From Falsirhodobacter flavus (GTDB lineage Bacteria > Pseudomonadota > Alphaproteobacteria > Rhodobacterales > Rhodobacteraceae): a stretch of 64,000 nucleotides of DNA. The DNA lies in NCBI GenBank assembly GCA_029846755.1, contig JARWBI010000001.1, positions 62,001-126,000 on the forward strand. Direction: 5' to 3'. Below the pieces are notes generated by a model. The model was not told where the DNA came from, ran no database searches, and saw only the letters and a list, made by a program, of their open reading frames with translations. The position numbers and the translations under genes were made by a program. How positions within the stretch are numbered: the first letter of the stretch is position 1; every line of letters starts with the position of its first letter. This document shows positions 5,745 through 46,890 of this stretch, in pieces.

Positions 5745-6140
5745 CTATTCCCACCACGGGTCGATTGCGGCGATGTCATCATCGCTCCATCCGAAATGAT
5801 GCGCGAATTCGTGAACGGTGACATGGGCGACCAGTTCCCGCAGGGTCACGTTTCCGCGATCCACCCATTCGTCAAGAATCGCTCGGCGGAACAGCCAAAC
5901 CGTGTCCGGCCCCATCGGCTGGTCCATCACCGATTTTTCCGTCAGCGGGATGCCGTCGTAAAGGCCGGTCAACTCGAACGGGTCTTCGATGCCAAGGCCC
6001 GCCAGCATCTCCTGCGGTGCGAAGTCTTCGACGCGCAGGACGACCTTCGCTGCCTGTGCCTGCCACGGGGCGGGCAGGGCGGCCACGGTTTCATGGGCAA
6101 GGGTTTCGATCGTGGAGAGGTCGGGCGCTGTCTGATCCAT
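5745..6140 (-). CDS. Small zincin-like metallopeptidase (PF06262 type)
   Basis: A 131-residue cytosolic protein with the extended zinc motif HEFAHHFGWSD at 110-120, typical of the Zincin_1 family (HExxHHFGxxD). Family members are minimal metallopeptidase folds of unknown substrate. I chose the ATG at 6140; an upstream ATG at 6176 adds poorly conserved residues and would overlap the glpD promoter region. Downstream is the exported MBL hydrolase at 10 nt distance. Confidence 0.85.
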   Translation of the reverse strand: MDQTAPDLSTIETLAHETVAALPAPWQAQAAKVVLRVEDFAPQEMLAGLGIEDPFELTGLYDGIPLTEKSVMDQPMGPDTVWLFRRAILDEWVDRGNVTLRELVAHVTVHEFAHHFGWSDDDIAAIDPWWE

Positions 6141-22043: not shown

Positions 22044-23342
22044 ATGACGACCGATGCAAGACCGCTCAACCGCAGCGACATGCGCGTGCTGGGGCTTTCG
22101 GCCCTTGGTGGCGCGTTGGAGTTCTATGACTTCATCATCTTCGTCTTCTTTGCGACGGTGATCGGCCATCTGTTCTTTCCGCCCGACATGCCGGACTGGC
22201 TGGTGACGATCCAGACCTTCGGCATCTTTGCCGCCGGATACCTCGTGCGGCCCCTGGGCGGGATCGTCATGGCGCATTTCGGCGATAAGGGCGGGCGCAA
22301 GCGCGTCTTTGCGCTGTCGGTGTTCCTGATGTCGATTTCGACCCTCGCGATGGCGTGCCTTCCGACATACGAGACGCTGGGCGTCTGGGCACCGATCCTG
22401 CTGGTGCTGTTCCGCATGCTGCAAGGCGCGGCCATCGGCGGCGAGGTTCCGGGCGCGTGGACCTTCGTGGCCGAACATGTGCCCGCGAACCGCGTGGGGA
22501 TGGCTTGCGGGTTCCTCTGTTCGGGACTGACCTTCGGCATCCTGCTGGGATCGCTGATCGCGGCGGGGATCAACTGGATCTTCACGCCGGAACAGGTGTC
22601 GGGCTTCGCTTGGCGCATCCCGTTCCTGATCGGCGGCGTGTTCGGGCTGATCGGCGTTTACTTGCGCCGCTGGCTGGCCGAAACGCCGATCTTCACGCAG
22701 ATGAAGAACAGCGACCTTTTGCAGAAAAGCCTGCCGCTGAAAACAGTGCTGCGCGACCATCTGCACGGGGTCATCATCTCGGGTCTGCTGACATGGGTGC
22801 TTTCGGCGGGGATCGTAGTGACGACGCTGATGACCTCGACGTTCCTGCAAAAGCTTTATGGCTATTCGGCGCTGGAATCGCTGCTGGCGACCAGCTTCGG
22901 GTCGCTGTTCCTGATCTTCGGCACCGTGTCGGCGGGGATGCTGGTGGACCGTTTCGGCAGCGGGCGATTCTTTGCGGTGGCCGGCGTGCTGTTCGGCGCG
23001 GTGACCTTCACCTTCTACAGCTTTGCGGGCCATTCGCTGCCGGTGCTGTTCGGGCTTTACGCGCTGATGGGGTTGGTCGTGGGGCTGGTGGGGGCAACGC
23101 CTTATGTGATGGTGCGAGCGTTCCCGGCGCAGGTGCGGTTCACGGGGCTGTCCTTCTCCTACAACGTCGCTTATGCGATCTTCGGCGGGCTGACCCCGCT
23201 GGCGGTCAGCTCGCTTCTGCGGGTGAACCCGATGGCCCCGGCATGGTATCTGCTGTTCATCGCGGCGCTGACGACCTGCATCGGGCTTTACCTGATGGCG
23301 AACGGGCGCAAGGTCGAAGGGGTCATCGGCCTCGCCCCCTAG
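22044..23342 (+). CDS. MFS transporter, MHS family
   Basis: A 432-residue 12-helix carrier. The N-terminal ALEFYDFIIF and the loop motif HFGDKGGRKRVF identify the metabolite:H+ symporter group (ProP/ShiA/KgtP relatives); a second motif, LVDRFGSGRFF, is in loop 8-9. Unlike the MHS gene at the start of the window, it has no large periplasmic insertion. Substrate unknown. The ATG at 22044 follows a GGGGG tract. Divergent from nfu, with the Irr box between them; ends 4 nt inside the convergent gene. Confidence 0.85.
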   Translation: MTTDARPLNRSDMRVLGLSALGGALEFYDFIIFVFFATVIGHLFFPPDMPDWLVTIQTFGIFAAGYLVRPLGGIVMAHFGDKGGRKRVFALSVFLMSISTLAMACLPTYETLGVWAPILLVLFRMLQGAAIGGEVPGAWTFVAEHVPANRVGMACGFLCSGLTFGILLGSLIAAGINWIFTPEQVSGFAWRIPFLIGGVFGLIGVYLRRWLAETPIFTQMKNSDLLQKSLPLKTVLRDHLHGVIISGLLTWVLSAGIVVTTLMTSTFLQKLYGYSALESLLATSFGSLFLIFGTVSAGMLVDRFGSGRFFAVAGVLFGAVTFTFYSFAGHSLPVLFGLYALMGLVVGLVGATPYVMVRAFPAQVRFTGLSFSYNVAYAIFGGLTPLAVSSLLRVNPMAPAWYLLFIAALTTCIGLYLMANGRKVEGVIGLAP

Positions 23343-23602
23343 TCGCCCGCGACGAACTTGTTGAACCGGCTGGTGCCGCCGTCCGCGACCTTGTCCTGAT
23401 AGAGGAAGTCCAGCCCGCTGTCATCGAAGATGGCGAAGAACTCGTCCCAGTCGATGCGGGTCAGGGTCTCCTCCGGTTCTCCGAAGTCGATGCGCAGGAT
23501 GCCGCCCTTGCCCTTGGTCTCGACCTTGGCGGGGTGGCCGTCGCGGGCTTCGGCCCATTTGCGGATGGTGTCGTGGTCGCGGGTGGTCTTGGATTCTGAC
23601 AT
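23339..23602 (-). CDS. Conserved 87-residue hydrophilic protein
   Basis: A small charged protein with segments RDHDTIRKWAEARDGHPAKV, GILRIDFG and TSRFNKFV. I recognise the type as a widely conserved proteobacterial small protein often mislabelled as a glucan-branching enzyme; its function is unknown. GGAGG precedes the ATG at 23602. A GGAAC-N16-GGTT promoter-like element lies 22 nt upstream, so it may belong to the same stress regulon as the 43.6-46.9 kb block. The 3' end overlaps the convergent MFS gene by 4 nt. Confidence 0.78.
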   Translation of the reverse strand: MSESKTTRDHDTIRKWAEARDGHPAKVETKGKGGILRIDFGEPEETLTRIDWDEFFAIFDDSGLDFLYQDKVADGGTSRFNKFVAGD

Positions 23603-23624: not shown

Positions 23625-23649
23625 AACCAAGGGACGCGCGCGATGTTCC
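23625..23649 (-). promoter_or_regulatory. Candidate ECF (EcfG-like) promoter of the 87-residue protein gene
   Basis: On the minus strand GGAAC (23649-23645), 16 nt, then GGTT (23628-23625), with 22 nt between the -10 and the ATG. Same layout as the sites at 43620, 44870, 44896 and 46089, with G instead of C in the first -10 position. Confidence 0.45.
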
Positions 23650-42610: not shown

Positions 42611-43647
42611 TCGCCGTCATCGCCCTTGCTGCGGCGCTTTGGGGCATTGGCCGGGTGGTCGGTGCCCCGCCACGGCTGCGCTGGGCGATGGTCGGGGCGG
42701 TCTGGCTGGGTGCGGTGCTTTTGCATCTGGTGCTGCCGCCGGACGCGCCGCTGCGATCGGCGACGGGCGGCGATGCACGGGTCTGGCTGGCGCTGGGCGT
42801 GGTGGGGGCGAGTATCGCCGGATACCGCGCACTGCTGCTGCGCCTGTGCGATCGGGCGCGGCCTGTGGAAGCGCCGCGCCGGGGGCTGTTCTCGGACACG
42901 GAACTCGACCGCTATTCCCGCCACATCCTGCTGCGAGAGATCGGCGGCCCCGGCCAGCGCGCTTTGAAACAAGCCAATGTGCTGGTCGTGGGCGCAGGGG
43001 GGTTGGGATCGCCCTTGCTGCTTTACCTTGCGGCGGCGGGGGTGGGACGGATCACCGTGATGGATGGCGACGCCGTGGAGAATTCCAACCTGCAGCGGCA
43101 GATCATCCACAGCGATGCGCGGATCGGGACGAACAAGGCCGAATCCGCGGCGGTGGCGATGCGGGCGCTGAACCCTTTCGTCGCGGTTACGGCGCTGGCG
43201 CGGCATCTTGGCCCCGACGACGATGTGGGGCCTTATGATCTGATCCTTGACGGAACGGACAATTTCGACACGCGCTATCTGGTCAACCGCCTGGCGGCGC
43301 GGGCAGGGCGTCCGCTGATTGCCGGTGCGATCACGCAATGGGAAGGGCAGATCGGCCTTTACGATCCGGCGCGCGGGACGGCCTGTTACGAATGCGTCTT
43401 TCCCGTGCGGCCCGCGCCGGGTCTGGCGCCCTCTTGCGCCGAGGCTGGGGTGGCTGCGCCGCTTCCGGGCATCATCGGCGCGATGATGGCGACGGAGGCG
43501 ATCAAGCATCTGACCGGGGCGGGGCAGGGGTTGGCGGATCGCCTGATCCTGCACGATGCGCTTTATGCCGAGACGCGGTCGATAACCGTGCACCCGCGCG
43601 CGGATTGCCCAATATGCCGGGAACATCGAACGGTTTCGCGCAGTTGA
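42607..43647 (+). CDS. moeB: Membrane-anchored MoeB/ThiF-family adenylyltransferase
   Basis: A 346-residue E1-like enzyme that adenylates the C-terminus of a ThiS/MoaD-type sulfur carrier. The catalytic domain starts near residue 96 ([19 protein letters not shown]), with ATP loop GAGGLGSP (129-136), the [13 protein letters not shown] arginine segment and zinc cysteines in CYECVF and CPIC. Unusual: residues 1-82 contain three hydrophobic segments (about 1-18, 25-44, 58-80), so the enzyme should sit in the inner membrane. There is no rhodanese domain. The last codons contain the topoisomerase promoter-like site. Confidence 0.9.
43620..43645 (+). promoter_or_regulatory. Candidate ECF (EcfG-like) promoter of the topoisomerase IB gene
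   Basis: GGAAC (43620-43624), 17 nt, AGTT (43642-43645), ending 26 nt before the ATG at 43672. It lies in the last codons of moeB. The -10 has A instead of C in the first position. Layout matches the neighbouring sites. Confidence 0.45.
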
Positions 43648-43671
43648 GGGGCTGCAAGTAAGGAGCCCCCG

Positions 43672-44670
43672 ATGACCGATATCGCCGTTCCCGAAGGTCT
43701 TGTCTATGTCGAGGATCGGATGCCGGGAATCCGGCGAAAGCGGTCGGGACGGGGGTTCACCTATATCGGGCCGAATGGTCGCCGCATCGACGAGGCGGAA
43801 AGGGTCCGTGTGCTGGCGCTTGCCGTGCCGCCCGCCTATGAGCGGGTCTGGATCTGTCCGCTGCCGAATGGCCATCTTCAGGCGACGGGATACGATGTGC
43901 GCGGGCGCAAGCAGTATCGCTATCACCCCGATTGGGGGCTATGGCGGTCGGAGGCGAAATACGGTCATCTGTCGCAATTCGGCCATGGGCTCGGCCGCCT
44001 GCGCCGCCGCGTGCAGCGCGACCTCAAGGGTGAGGCGGGCGATCTGGAATTCAGCCTTGCCGCGATGACCATGCTGATCGACCGCGCTTATCTGCGCGTC
44101 GGGACCCCAGCCTATACGCTGGAGAACAAGACCTTCGGCGCCACGACGCTGTTGCCGCGCCATGTCTCGCTGTCCGACGGGGCGGTGCGGCTGAAGTTCA
44201 AGGCCAAGGGCGGCAAACCGGTCACGCAAATCCTGCGCGACAAGCGGCTGCACCGGATCATGCAGGAGATCGGCGATCTGCCTGGTCGGCACTTGTTCTC
44301 GTGGATCGACGAGGAGGGCGAGCCGCGCCCCGTCTCCTCGCAGCATCTGAACAGCTATATTGCCGAAGGGTCGGGCGTGGTCGGCGCGACGGCGAAGACG
44401 TTCCGGACATGGGGCGGATCGCTGGCAGCCTTCGGTGCCGCGCGGGGCGCCGAAGGGGCACTGCCGATCCGCATGATGGCGAACGCCGCTGCCGAGGTTC
44501 TGGCAAACACCGCCGCCATCGCGCGCAAATCCTACATCCATCCGCGCATCCTCGCGCTTTCGACGCTGACCTCCGAGGACCGCATCGCCCTGCTGGAAAG
44601 CGTAACCCCCGAAGGCGATGCGGAATTGCGGGCCGAGGAACGGCGGATGCTGGGCTTCCTTACTTCTTGA
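43672..44670 (+). CDS. DNA topoisomerase IB (poxvirus-like)
   Basis: Relaxes supercoils by a transient 3'-phosphotyrosyl link. The 332-residue protein has the N-terminal bacterial TopIB domain (SGRGFTYIGPNGRRI; GRKQYRYHPDW), the catalytic domain with TFGATTLLPRHV and KTFRTWGGSLAAF, and the active-site Tyr288 in ARKSYIHPRIL. Bacterial TopIB genes are accessory and patchily distributed. It starts the stress block and has its own promoter-like element; its 3' end overlaps the convergent DUF3008 gene by 11 bp. Confidence 0.93.
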   Translation: MTDIAVPEGLVYVEDRMPGIRRKRSGRGFTYIGPNGRRIDEAERVRVLALAVPPAYERVWICPLPNGHLQATGYDVRGRKQYRYHPDWGLWRSEAKYGHLSQFGHGLGRLRRRVQRDLKGEAGDLEFSLAAMTMLIDRAYLRVGTPAYTLENKTFGATTLLPRHVSLSDGAVRLKFKAKGGKPVTQILRDKRLHRIMQEIGDLPGRHLFSWIDEEGEPRPVSSQHLNSYIAEGSGVVGATAKTFRTWGGSLAAFGAARGAEGALPIRMMANAAAEVLANTAAIARKSYIHPRILALSTLTSEDRIALLESVTPEGDAELRAEERRMLGFLTS

Positions 44671-44845
44671 CGTGATCGGGTTTGCCCTTGCGGCTGGTCG
44701 AAGCGATGTCCTCCAGCTCCTTCTCGGACATGGACTGCGCCATCTGCTTCGACGCGCCCTTCAGATCGCCCTTCTTCGTGTCGCCGCGTTTTGCAGACAA
44801 CGCGGCCCCGGCGGCCTTCTGCTGTGATTTCGATTTTGCTGGCAT
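44660..44845 (-). CDS. DUF3008 family small basic protein
   Basis: A 61-residue lysine-rich protein: PAKSKSQQKAAGAALSAKRG, then KGASKQMAQSMSEKELEDIA and a KGKPDHVKK end. It matches the DUF3008 family of small proteobacterial proteins of unknown role. AAGGAG precedes the ATG. Its promoter-like element (44870-44894) is back to back with that of the divergent gene. Confidence 0.85.
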   Translation of the reverse strand: MPAKSKSQQKAAGAALSAKRGDTKKGDLKGASKQMAQSMSEKELEDIASTSRKGKPDHVKK

Positions 44846-44869
44846 GATGCGCTCCTTTCGCGAGGGATC

Positions 44870-44894
44870 AACTTCGGGCATCGCACGGTGTTCC
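44870..44894 (-). promoter_or_regulatory. Candidate ECF (EcfG-like) promoter of the DUF3008 gene
   Basis: On the minus strand GGAAC (44894-44890), 16 nt, AGTT (44873-44870), with 24 nt to the ATG. Its -35 is separated from the opposing -35 (44896-44900) by a single base, forming GTTCC-G-GGAAC. Confidence 0.5.
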
Positions 44895-44895
44895 G

Positions 44896-44920
44896 GGAAC
44901 CCCCGCTGCCGCGCGGCGTT
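44896..44920 (+). promoter_or_regulatory. Candidate ECF (EcfG-like) promoter of the single-pass membrane protein gene
   Basis: GGAAC (44896-44900), 16 nt, CGTT (44917-44920): exact consensus, 24 nt before the ATG at 44945. Confidence 0.6.
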
Positions 44921-44944
44921 GATCGGCAAAAGGGGAGAAGAACC

Positions 44945-45289
44945 ATGAGCCAGCCCGAATCAGACCTCGACCGCCAGAAGAAACGTCATGCGGGGCCGCT
45001 GATCGGCATCACGGCGGTTCTGATCTTCGTTGCCATAATCCTGACATGGTGGTTCGGCCACGAGGCGACCGAAGGCAATGCCCCCGCCGGGGCCGAGACG
45101 CAGATCGACGGGCGCACCGGAGTCGAAGAGCCGCAAAGCGGCGGTCCGGCAGGTGCGCCGCAGGTCACGCCCGAGGCCGAGGTGACGCGGCCCGAAACGA
45201 ATTCCATCGAGCCCGCCGCACCGAACGCGATATCGCCAAACAGCCCGCCCGATGCAGATACGCCGCCTGCGGGCAGCACCAGCCCGTAA
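44945..45289 (+). CDS. Single-pass membrane protein with Pro-rich periplasmic tail
   Basis: A 114-residue protein: a short basic cytoplasmic N-terminus (DLDRQKKRHAG), one transmembrane helix (about 17-37, GPLIGITAVLIFVAIILTWW) and a low-complexity acidic, proline/alanine/threonine-rich tail of about 75 residues. No recognised domain; the pattern suggests a cell-envelope stress protein. A ribosome site (AGGGGAGAA) precedes the ATG. Its tail composition resembles that of the PD-repeat protein encoded convergently. Confidence 0.75.
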   Translation: MSQPESDLDRQKKRHAGPLIGITAVLIFVAIILTWWFGHEATEGNAPAGAETQIDGRTGVEEPQSGGPAGAPQVTPEAEVTRPETNSIEPAAPNAISPNSPPDADTPPAGSTSP

Positions 45290-45294
45290 TGAAA

Positions 45295-45317
45295 GGCGCG
45301 CCCGCAAGGGGCGCGCC
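45295..45317. terminator. Bidirectional stem-loop terminator
   Basis: GGCGCGCCC (45295-45303) pairs with GGGCGCGCC (45309-45317) in the 33-bp gap between convergent genes. On the minus strand it is followed by TTTCATT, a short U-rich tract; on the plus strand by ATTCG. Confidence 0.6.
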
Positions 45318-45322
45318 ATTCG

Positions 45323-45481
45323 TCAACCGTGGATCGGGGGGATCACCTCGCCCGGCTGGGGCAGGTCGGGGTCCTCGCCCGGTGGGATCGGATCGGGGTC
45401 CGGCATCGGATCGGGATAGGTGTCGGGGTCCGGTCCGGGTGCCGGATCGCCGGGTTGGACGGGGTCGCGCGGGCCTGTCAT
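45323..45481 (-). CDS. 52-residue Pro/Asp repeat miniprotein
   Basis: A very small gene with AGGAGG 6 nt before its ATG (45481) and a TGA stop at 45323-45325. The product is dominated by Pro-Asp units (GPDPDTYPDPMPDPDPIPPG in the centre) with a net acidic charge and no membrane segment; it should be disordered. Function unknown. It starts 24 nt after the glycosylase stop, so the two are probably one transcript. The ribosome site, operon position and long in-frame repeat argue that it is real. Confidence 0.65.
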   Translation of the reverse strand: MTGPRDPVQPGDPAPGPDPDTYPDPMPDPDPIPPGEDPDLPQPGEVIPPIHG

Positions 45482-45505
45482 TGGGGCCTCCTTTCCTTGT
45501 CAGGA

Positions 45506-46066
45506 TCAACGGGCGGTCAGGCTGCTATGTTCCCGAAACGGACGGCTGAGAAAGGGCGAGCCGTCCTCGCCGAAGCGCCAGGGAACATCAACCGCGCGGG
45601 TGATGCCGATGCGCGGCCCGGCGATGACCGCACTAGGGGCGCCCGCTGCGATGCAAAGATCGCCGCCGTCATCCTCCGGCCCGATGCCAAGCGCCTGTCC
45701 CAGCTTCCCCGGACCGGAGCAAAGCGCGCGCGGAGCCGACATGCCGCGCCGCGCCGCCATCAGCCCCAGCCCATGCGTCGGTTCGATGGCGCGGATCAGC
45801 ACTGCCTCTCCGCTGCGGCAGACGACGTTCAGGCACCAGTGGATGCCATATGACCGATAGACATAGGCGCGCCCGGGCGGCCCGAACATCGACCGATTGC
45901 GCAGCCCCGGCCCGCGAAAGCTGTGCGAGGCGGGATCGGTCTGCGTATAAGCCTCCGTCTCAACGATCCGGCCGCCCGCGCCGCGCAGGGACAGAACGGT
46001 GCCGACAAGGTCGCGTGCCACGGCGGGGGCGTCACGGTCGAACCAGTCGGGCGTAAGGCAGGTCAT
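45506..46066 (-). CDS. DNA-3-methyladenine glycosylase (AAG/MPG type)
   Basis: Base-excision repair enzyme removing alkylated purines. The 186-residue protein has the AAG fold marks DLVGTVL, GRIVETEAYTQTDPASHSFRG (catalytic Glu), NRSMFGPPGRAYVYRSYGIHWCLNV and ALCSGPGKLGQALGI. ATG at 46066 chosen with AAAGGAT upstream. Divergent from the BON gene through a 75-bp gap that holds a symmetric pair of promoter-like sites; followed by the PD miniprotein gene. Confidence 0.92.
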   Translation of the reverse strand: MTCLTPDWFDRDAPAVARDLVGTVLSLRGAGGRIVETEAYTQTDPASHSFRGPGLRNRSMFGPPGRAYVYRSYGIHWCLNVVCRSGEAVLIRAIEPTHGLGLMAARRGMSAPRALCSGPGKLGQALGIGPEDDGGDLCIAAGAPSAVIAGPRIGITRAVDVPWRFGEDGSPFLSRPFREHSSLTAR

Positions 46067-46088
46067 CGGGTATCCTTTGCAACCGGGG

Positions 46089-46114
46089 GGAACAAGAAAG
46101 GCGGCATCGTTGTT
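46089..46114 (+). promoter_or_regulatory. Candidate ECF (EcfG-like) promoter of the BON-domain gene
   Basis: GGAAC (46089-46093), 17 nt, TGTT (46111-46114), ending 27 nt before the ATG at 46142. The -10 has T instead of C. It occupies the same bases as the opposing site for the glycosylase gene. Confidence 0.4.
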
Positions 46115-46116
46115 CC
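46091..46116 (-). promoter_or_regulatory. Candidate ECF (EcfG-like) promoter of the glycosylase gene
   Basis: Minus strand GGAAC (46116-46112), 17 nt, TGTT (46094-46091), 24 nt before the ATG at 46066. Together with the plus-strand site it forms the inverted repeat GGAACAA ... TTGTTCC. Confidence 0.4.
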
Positions 46117-46141
46117 CTCGGCAGCGCAAGGAGGATGTGCC

Positions 46142-46633
46142 ATGGCCCATACGCATGACAGGGAGGAAGCACCGCTTTACCGGGGCGAACGGCTTCGGAT
46201 CGGTGGATACGACGATTTCGGCACCAGTCGTATCGCGGATTACGGCGACAGGCGGGCGGGGTATGGCGCATATCACAACGAACGCGATGCTTTTGCCGCG
46301 CGCCACCCGCGCAAGGACCGCGGGATGATCCAGCGCGCGGCGGACGAGATCGCGTCGTGGCTGGGCGATCACAATGCCGAGTTGCGGCGCGTGGACGATG
46401 TGGCGCCGGCCGGGGCGCGGGATTCGGCATTGCTGGACGCCGTCGCAGCGCGGCTGGCCGCACCGGGCGGGATCGCGGTTGACGGTGTGGAGATCCGTGC
46501 CGACCGGGGCATCGTGACGCTGACGGGGCGGGTCGCGAACCTTGCCGAACGCGAGCGGGCCGAGCGTCTGCTGGCGGGGCTGCACGGCCTTCGCATGCTG
46601 CGCAACGAGCTTTCCGTCGGGCCTGCGGTGTGA
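46142..46633 (+). CDS. BON-domain stress protein (OsmY-like)
   Basis: A 163-residue soluble protein. The N-terminal half is charged and glycine/tyrosine-rich and contains RAADEIASWLGDHNAE, similar to the SWFGD motif of BON proteins. The C-terminal half (about 92-160) is a BON domain: VDGVEIRADRGIVTLTGRV and ERAERLLAGLHGLRMLRNEL. BON proteins bind phospholipids or envelope components and are commonly induced by osmotic stress. No signal peptide seen. AAGGAGG precedes the ATG. Coupled to the next gene (TGATG). Confidence 0.85.
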   Translation: MAHTHDREEAPLYRGERLRIGGYDDFGTSRIADYGDRRAGYGAYHNERDAFAARHPRKDRGMIQRAADEIASWLGDHNAELRRVDDVAPAGARDSALLDAVAARLAAPGGIAVDGVEIRADRGIVTLTGRVANLAERERAERLLAGLHGLRMLRNELSVGPAV

Positions 46634-46890
46634 TGCGGGCCTTGCTTGTCTTTCTGCTGACCTCGGGCGGTGCCGCCGCTGCGGAATGGCCCGAATCGAT
46701 CACGACCGCGCTGTTCGCCGATGCTGATTTCACCACCCTGCGCCCTGCAGAGGAAATCGCGCAGAACTGGGCGCTCCTGACCGAGGAAGACCGGGCCACC
46801 CTGCGCCGTGACTGCGCTGCCGAGCCGGTGGAAGGCACCCCCGGCCCCGATGCCGTTGCCCGCGCCTGCGAAGCCCTGCCCGCCGAGTGA
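46633..46890 (+). CDS. Small exported protein of unknown function
   Basis: An 85-residue protein with a signal peptide (RALLVFLLTSGGAAAAEW) and a mature acidic helical part containing two cysteines (in RRDCAAEP and ARACEALP). No recognised family. Its ATG shares one base with the BON stop codon, so it is translated with that gene. Confidence 0.6.
   Translation: MRALLVFLLTSGGAAAAEWPESITTALFADADFTTLRPAEEIAQNWALLTEEDRATLRRDCAAEPVEGTPGPDAVARACEALPAE

Follow-up and report, generated by a model that had tools for sequence, protein, structure and literature searches.

The window analysed here is a stretch of 64 000 nucleotides from Falsirhodobacter flavus (G000:C11:62001-126000), whose genome of 4.02 Mb is assembled in 51 contigs and is 99.8 % complete. 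It contains a block of genes preceded by sites that resemble promoters of EcfG, the extracytoplasmic function (ECF) sigma factor of the alphaproteobacterial general stress regulon. Profiles of Pfam and NCBIfam gave the gene order ThiF/MoeB-type protein, topoisomerase IB (topIB), DUF3008 protein, membrane protein, proline/aspartate-rich (PD) miniprotein and methylpurine-DNA glycosylase (MPG), followed by a SWFGD-BON protein, a small putative secreted protein without a family and a glycine betaine oxygenase-like gene. The promoter motif searched for was GGAAC-N16/17-NGTT, with GGAAC-N16/17-CGTT as a stricter, exact form. Six sites were found within 43620-46116, each 24-27 nt upstream of an ATG. 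The original prediction had described five units with this motif; every one of its sites is present where it was placed, while the count rises to six, and the glycosylase and the PD miniprotein, which had been put under one promoter, have separate promoters. The features of the block are as follows.

43620..43645, + strand: EcfG-type promoter of topIB, GGAAC-N17-AGTT, at the 3' end of the thiF/moeB gene
43672..44670, + strand: topoisomerase IB, 332 aa (Top1B_N_bact, 3.3e-21; Topoisom_I, 4.4e-19)
44660..44845, - strand: DUF3008 protein, 61 aa (PF11450, 7.5e-31)
44870..44894, - strand: EcfG-type promoter of the DUF3008 gene, GGAAC-N16-AGTT
44896..44920, + strand: EcfG-type promoter of the membrane protein gene, GGAAC-N16-CGTT, exact
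44945..45289, + strand: single-pass membrane protein, 114 aa, no Pfam family, membrane span read from the sequence
45323..45481, - strand: PD miniprotein, 52 aa, no family
45508..45533, - strand: EcfG-type promoter of the PD miniprotein, GGAAC-N17-CGTT, exact, inside the 3' end of the MPG gene
45506..46066, - strand: MPG (PF02245, 3.8e-56; NF002003 above cut-off)
46089..46114, + strand: EcfG-type promoter of the BON gene, GGAAC-N17-TGTT, weaker -10
46091..46116, - strand: EcfG-type promoter of MPG, GGAAC-N17-TGTT, weaker -10
46142..46633, + strand: SWFGD and BON domain protein, 163 aa (PF04972, 1.9e-11; NF033157, 4.3e-12)
46630..46890, + strand: small putative secreted protein, 86 aa from a GTG, no Pfam family, overlapping the BON stop codon

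The distance from GTT to ATG is 24 nt for DUF3008, the membrane protein and MPG, 26 nt for TopIB and the PD miniprotein, and 27 nt for BON (where the start-codon filter used in the scans selected a GTG at 22 nt), so that the spacing of 24-27 nt noted in the original prediction holds at all six sites. The -10 element is CGTT at the membrane protein and PD miniprotein, AGTT at TopIB and DUF3008, and TGTT at MPG and BON. A -10 consensus of C/GGTT is given for Methylobacterium (PMC4814048); the first base agrees with (C/G)GTT in only two of the six sites, and the promoter type is present at a short, regular distance from the start codon in all of them. Four of the sites form two pairs. The DUF3008 and membrane protein promoters stand back to back with GTTCCGGGAAC common to both, and the MPG and BON promoters are interlocked on GGAACAA-N14-TTGTTCC, with complete elements on both strands of the overlapping stretch. 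The small putative secreted protein is presumably co-transcribed with the BON gene.

The number of sites in the window exceeded that of the spacer controls. On both strands, 12 motif matches were found at spacers of 16 and 17 nt (six of them in the block), compared with a mean of 1.69 per spacer at 16 other spacers (Poisson P 2e-4). When a Shine-Dalgarno-like stretch and a start codon were also demanded, there were nine matches at spacers 16/17 and one over 17 other spacers, with six of the nine in the block; the same filter applied to 400 kb of the same contig gave six at spacers 16/17 vs 18 at the others. Of the other three filtered sites, two on the minus strand, at 5838 and 56033, look like chance matches. 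Comparison of the motif with shuffled upstream sequence, which the original prediction had proposed as a check, placed the block far above expectation: among 20,000 dinucleotide shuffles of the six 80-nt upstream regions, 19,724 rounds gave no site, 273 gave one and three gave two, and no round gave more. A further site in the window, GGAAC-N16-GGTT at 23625-23649 (-), lies 22 nt before an ORF of 87 aa without a Pfam family (23342-23602, -) and is likely to be a seventh EcfG-type promoter.

Within the genus, G004 keeps all six sites with no changed motif bases (0/48) vs 27 of 106 changed spacer bases (Fisher 1.7e-5; the overlapping MPG and BON sites were counted separately and the N of NGTT was counted as spacer). 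This combination of a conserved motif and a drifting spacer was not found for MPG in three other members of the genus. These members, G003, G002 and G006, keep the order TopIB, DUF3008, PD, MPG; all of them have the motif at TopIB and PD, and two (G003 and G006) have it at a BON-type gene. Three further species of the genus likewise have a motif at the 3' end of MPG. G000 and G004 encode the block's membrane protein, which was not found in G003, G002 or G006. Homologues of the PD miniprotein, of 52-60 aa, occur in four other species of the genus (five species in all) and share a conserved end, EDPxLPxPGxxxPPI. The miniprotein looks like a real coding sequence, because in 10/10 species pairs the third codon position has the most substitutions; nonsynonymous differences are, however, frequent among the more distant species.

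A search of the full genome for ecfG, nepR and phyR, also suggested with the original prediction, identified the canonical locus on contig C22 (L031), and all three regulators are therefore encoded in the source genome. The locus encodes PhyR (PhyR_sigma2, PhyR_sigma-like and receiver domains), NepR (match at C22:361594-361689) and an ECF sigma factor with sigma regions 2 and 4, and it carries EcfG-type promoters of its own. NepR was detected in all seven searched genomes of the genus. A second EcfG-like sigma gene of 166 aa, with Sigma70 regions 2 and 4, is located on contig C44 (L190) and is preceded by its own GGAAC-N16-CGTT promoter (G000:C44:79594-79618).

The source genome was scanned with the exact pattern and the start-codon filter. 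A signal emerged only where the distance to a start codon was right: 36 of 78 exact matches precede a plausible start (11 distinct sites plus 25, under slightly different filters), the control being the comparison with 400 kb of the contig. Some of the 36, e.g. L026, look like chance. Pfam assignments of selected products comprised ferritin (Dps-like), CsbD (two), PRC-barrel (two), DUF3309, baeRF12/host attachment, fasciclin, pyridoxamine-oxidase-like, TspO, AI-2E family transporter, zinc metallopeptidase, transglycosylase-associated protein and a DUF3008 paralogue. Such families are typical EcfG targets. Among these products, L029 had no Pfam family and L168 had only a match below cut-off. 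A table of targets for Sphingomonas melonis includes a PRC-barrel protein, a host-attachment protein, general stress protein 26 and Topoisomerase IB (PMC6599016).

Other topIB loci were taken as the best 80 of 553 from one genome scan (by their titles, mostly Rhodobacteraceae and rhizobia), and the motif was sought in the stretch that begins 150 nt before the topIB match and ends 15 nt within it. It was present in 49 of the 80 loci (spacer 16 in 16 of them, spacer 17 in 33), compared with five matches over 22 other spacers and three on the opposite strand at spacers 16/17. NepR scored above cut-off in 75 of 79 searched topIB genomes. The other four (NepR below cut-off in L094 and L124, no match in L100 and L106) also had no motif at topIB (Fisher 0.018). 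Since the L094 locus contains six EcfG-type sites, its NepR is probably merely divergent. A sample of 198 Rhodobacteraceae genomes, 39 with and 159 without topIB, showed NepR in 38 of 39 topIB genomes vs 51 of 159 others (Fisher 7e-15, uncorrected for genome size or phylogeny). The assignment to this family comes from NepR coordinates that agree between genomes of the sample and those with named loci, such as Cereibacter changlensis (G121 and G229) and Pseudotabrizicola formosa (G165 and G240). The single topIB genome without NepR is 64 % complete, and topIB lies less than 10 kb from nepR in six of the 38 genomes that have both. Topoisomerase IB is already known as a putative direct EcfG target in S. 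melonis Fr1, with GGAAC...CATT 24 nt before the coding sequence and a log2 ratio of -3.5 (PMC6599016).

The block as a whole was not found beyond the genus near topIB in the 80 outside loci. Neither MPG nor the PD miniprotein was detected there by tblastn, a search that is insensitive for PD and also missed the PD ORFs of L042-L044. Distant homologues of the membrane protein were found in only two of the 80, L091 and L094, both with the motif. Eleven topIB loci outside the genus were listed with the start-codon filter, of which these two were chosen for their membrane-protein homologues. In L091 and L094, both from Rhodobacteraceae, six EcfG-type promoters each lie near topIB, and the small stress-type genes there are another set; the remaining nine loci (L052-L058, L060 and L066) have 0 to 3. 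The L091 products matched Hva1_TUDOR, CsbD, mechanosensitive-channel helix and PLDc_N in Pfam, and the L094 products look alike. Dense promoter clusters near topIB recur with other contents, but not as a rule.

DUF3008 is uncommon (8/61 relatives and 15/289 genomes of the class). A class-wide link between DUF3008 and the motif was considered and proved only partial, with the motif within 200 nt in 15 of 27 loci that had a tblastn match, own genome and genus included, and three matches over 20 control spacers. Two of 29 loci (L050 and L051) were dropped for want of a tblastn match, and both carry the motif. L042-L044 were all scored as misses; in these DUF3008 lies downstream of a PD ORF, which carries the motif. 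A weak second DUF3008 homologue of 64 aa in the source genome (G000:C11:290772-290885) is preceded by an exact EcfG-type promoter, 36 nt from its start.

The regulatory locus itself showed an interlocked arrangement. The nepR-ecfG unit and phyR share one inverted repeat (L031 1674-1705; G000:C22:361767-361798), on which EcfG promoters of both strands are interlocked. The repeat is GGAACCNAAC-N12/13-GTTNGGTTCC, 32/33 bp long, and each arm holds the -35 element of one strand and the -10 element of the other. Complete EcfG-type promoters on both strands, overlapping by 18-19 bp on one inverted repeat, were found in 24 of 31 nepR loci (7/7 of the genus, 3/4 best family matches and 14/20 selected named genomes) when GGAAT was allowed besides GGAAC, and both -35 arms are kept in 29 of the 31. 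The exact repeat, searched for at lengths of 32 and 33 bp only, occurs in 36 of the 198 Rhodobacteraceae genomes at one place each (21 of 32 bp and 15 of 33 bp), always 67-148 bp upstream of the NepR match and nowhere else, and the reversed control gave no matches; the remaining 53 of 89 NepR genomes are without the exact form. Variation by 1 bp would be unexpected in the site of a dimeric repressor, whereas EcfG promoters tolerate it. Control of both units by EcfG is usual (PMC4814048), and an interlocked EcfG promoter was not found in the open-access literature searched. There is perhaps an even chance that the Rhodobacteraceae stress switch is built on a symmetric, interlocked EcfG promoter at which one EcfG-polymerase would choose between sigma/anti-sigma and anti-anti-sigma. 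The element is a new candidate design for a hub promoter. The MPG/BON and DUF3008/membrane protein pairs are two further paired promoter geometries, within the window.

The block very probably belongs to the alphaproteobacterial general stress regulon, of which it would form a small island, as the original prediction had suggested. This is supported by the sites and their spacing, the conservation of the motif across species, the presence of an EcfG-type sigma factor, NepR and PhyR in the genome, and the co-occurrence of topIB with NepR. On stress, PhyR would be phosphorylated and bind NepR, which would free EcfG. EcfG-RNA polymerase would then recognise GGAAC-N16/17-NGTT and transcribe six units: topIB; DUF3008; the single-pass membrane protein; the PD-rich miniprotein; the MPG glycosylase; and SWFGD-BON with the small secreted protein. 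Binding of EcfG to these sites and stress-induced transcription are what established knowledge of the pathway would predict, and annotation only suggests roles for the products in DNA and envelope protection.

Several observations weigh against this reading. The bare exact pattern is in no genome-wide excess (78 matches vs 90 for the reversed control), and this would favour chance matches in GC-rich DNA as the source of the sites, an explanation left with a negligible probability by the shuffles, the other-spacer controls and the conservation, which are all contrary to it. No strict motif was found in the scanned stretch of 31 of the 80 topIB loci, the co-occurrence of topIB and NepR carries no correction for genome size or phylogeny, and DUF3008 is only partly linked to the motif. 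A phyR mutant of Rhodobacter sphaeroides is described as unimpaired under oxidative, heat and osmotic stress but impaired under membrane and UV stress (PMC5830050), so that calling the response 'general' may overstate its range here. In the other genus members tested (G003, G002 and G006) MPG is without a strict motif, and MPG and BON have a T where Methylobacterium has C/G in C/GGTT (PMC4814048). These two are the weakest promoter calls of the six because their -10 is TGTT.

This weakness suggests a narrower reading, in which only the TopIB, DUF3008, membrane protein and PD sites are EcfG promoters and the MPG/BON element is a GC-rich inverted repeat of another kind, e.g. an operator. It would fit the TGTT element, the missing MPG motif in three genus members and the lack of a genome excess of the symmetric element GGAAC-N17/18-GTTCC (8 places vs 12 for the reversed control). 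It is nevertheless unlikely, since the MPG/BON element has the right spacer and the right ATG distance in both directions, G004 retains both of its sites, and G003 and G006 each have an EcfG site at a BON-type gene. The sigma factor involved may also differ from the one assumed. Transcription of the block could depend mostly on the second EcfG-type sigma factor (C44, 166 aa) instead of the one adjacent to nepR/phyR, or on both. That second gene has Sigma70 regions 2 and 4 and its own GGAAC-N16-CGTT promoter, and several EcfG factors act on shared targets in Methylobacterium (PMC4814048). The topIB link, however, follows NepR, and a main or shared role for the second factor seems improbable. 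An island under control of the PhyR-NepR-EcfG switch is the reading retained.

The general stress response is little understood in Rhodobacteraceae, and a conserved, compact list of targets makes the question directly testable. Topoisomerase IB is tied to this response by co-occurrence as well as by its promoter, DUF3008 (for which no paper was found in the open-access literature searched) and the PD miniprotein are given a regulatory context, and the interlocked nepR/phyR promoter suggests, in a simple and testable form, how the switch might keep its components in balance. The block resembles the EcfG/SigT/RpoE2 regulon, with its PhyR-NepR-EcfG partner switch, in promoter consensus, spacing, regulators and type of target. 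It differs in that 2.5 kb hold six promoters, among them two divergent pairs that overlap or abut, and in targets that include DUF3008 and the PD miniprotein. The layout of the regulatory locus, with a nepR-like gene and ecfG opposite phyR, is the same as in the related R. sphaeroides (PhyR, RSP_1274; RSP_1273; EcfG, RSP_1272), where the accessible text names no EcfG regulon (PMC5830050), whereas a target list is predicted here. Bidirectional promoters of Escherichia coli likewise consist of pseudo-symmetric DNA on which RNA polymerase takes two mutually exclusive orientations (PMC12825309), and complete, overlapping elements on both strands are present at MPG/BON and, in 24 of the 31 loci, at nepR/phyR. 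The nepR/phyR element differs from them in that it interlocks ECF sigma -35 and -10 elements on an inverted repeat at an autoregulatory locus. The system is of a known kind, and its gene set and paired, interlocked switches are a concrete list of targets.

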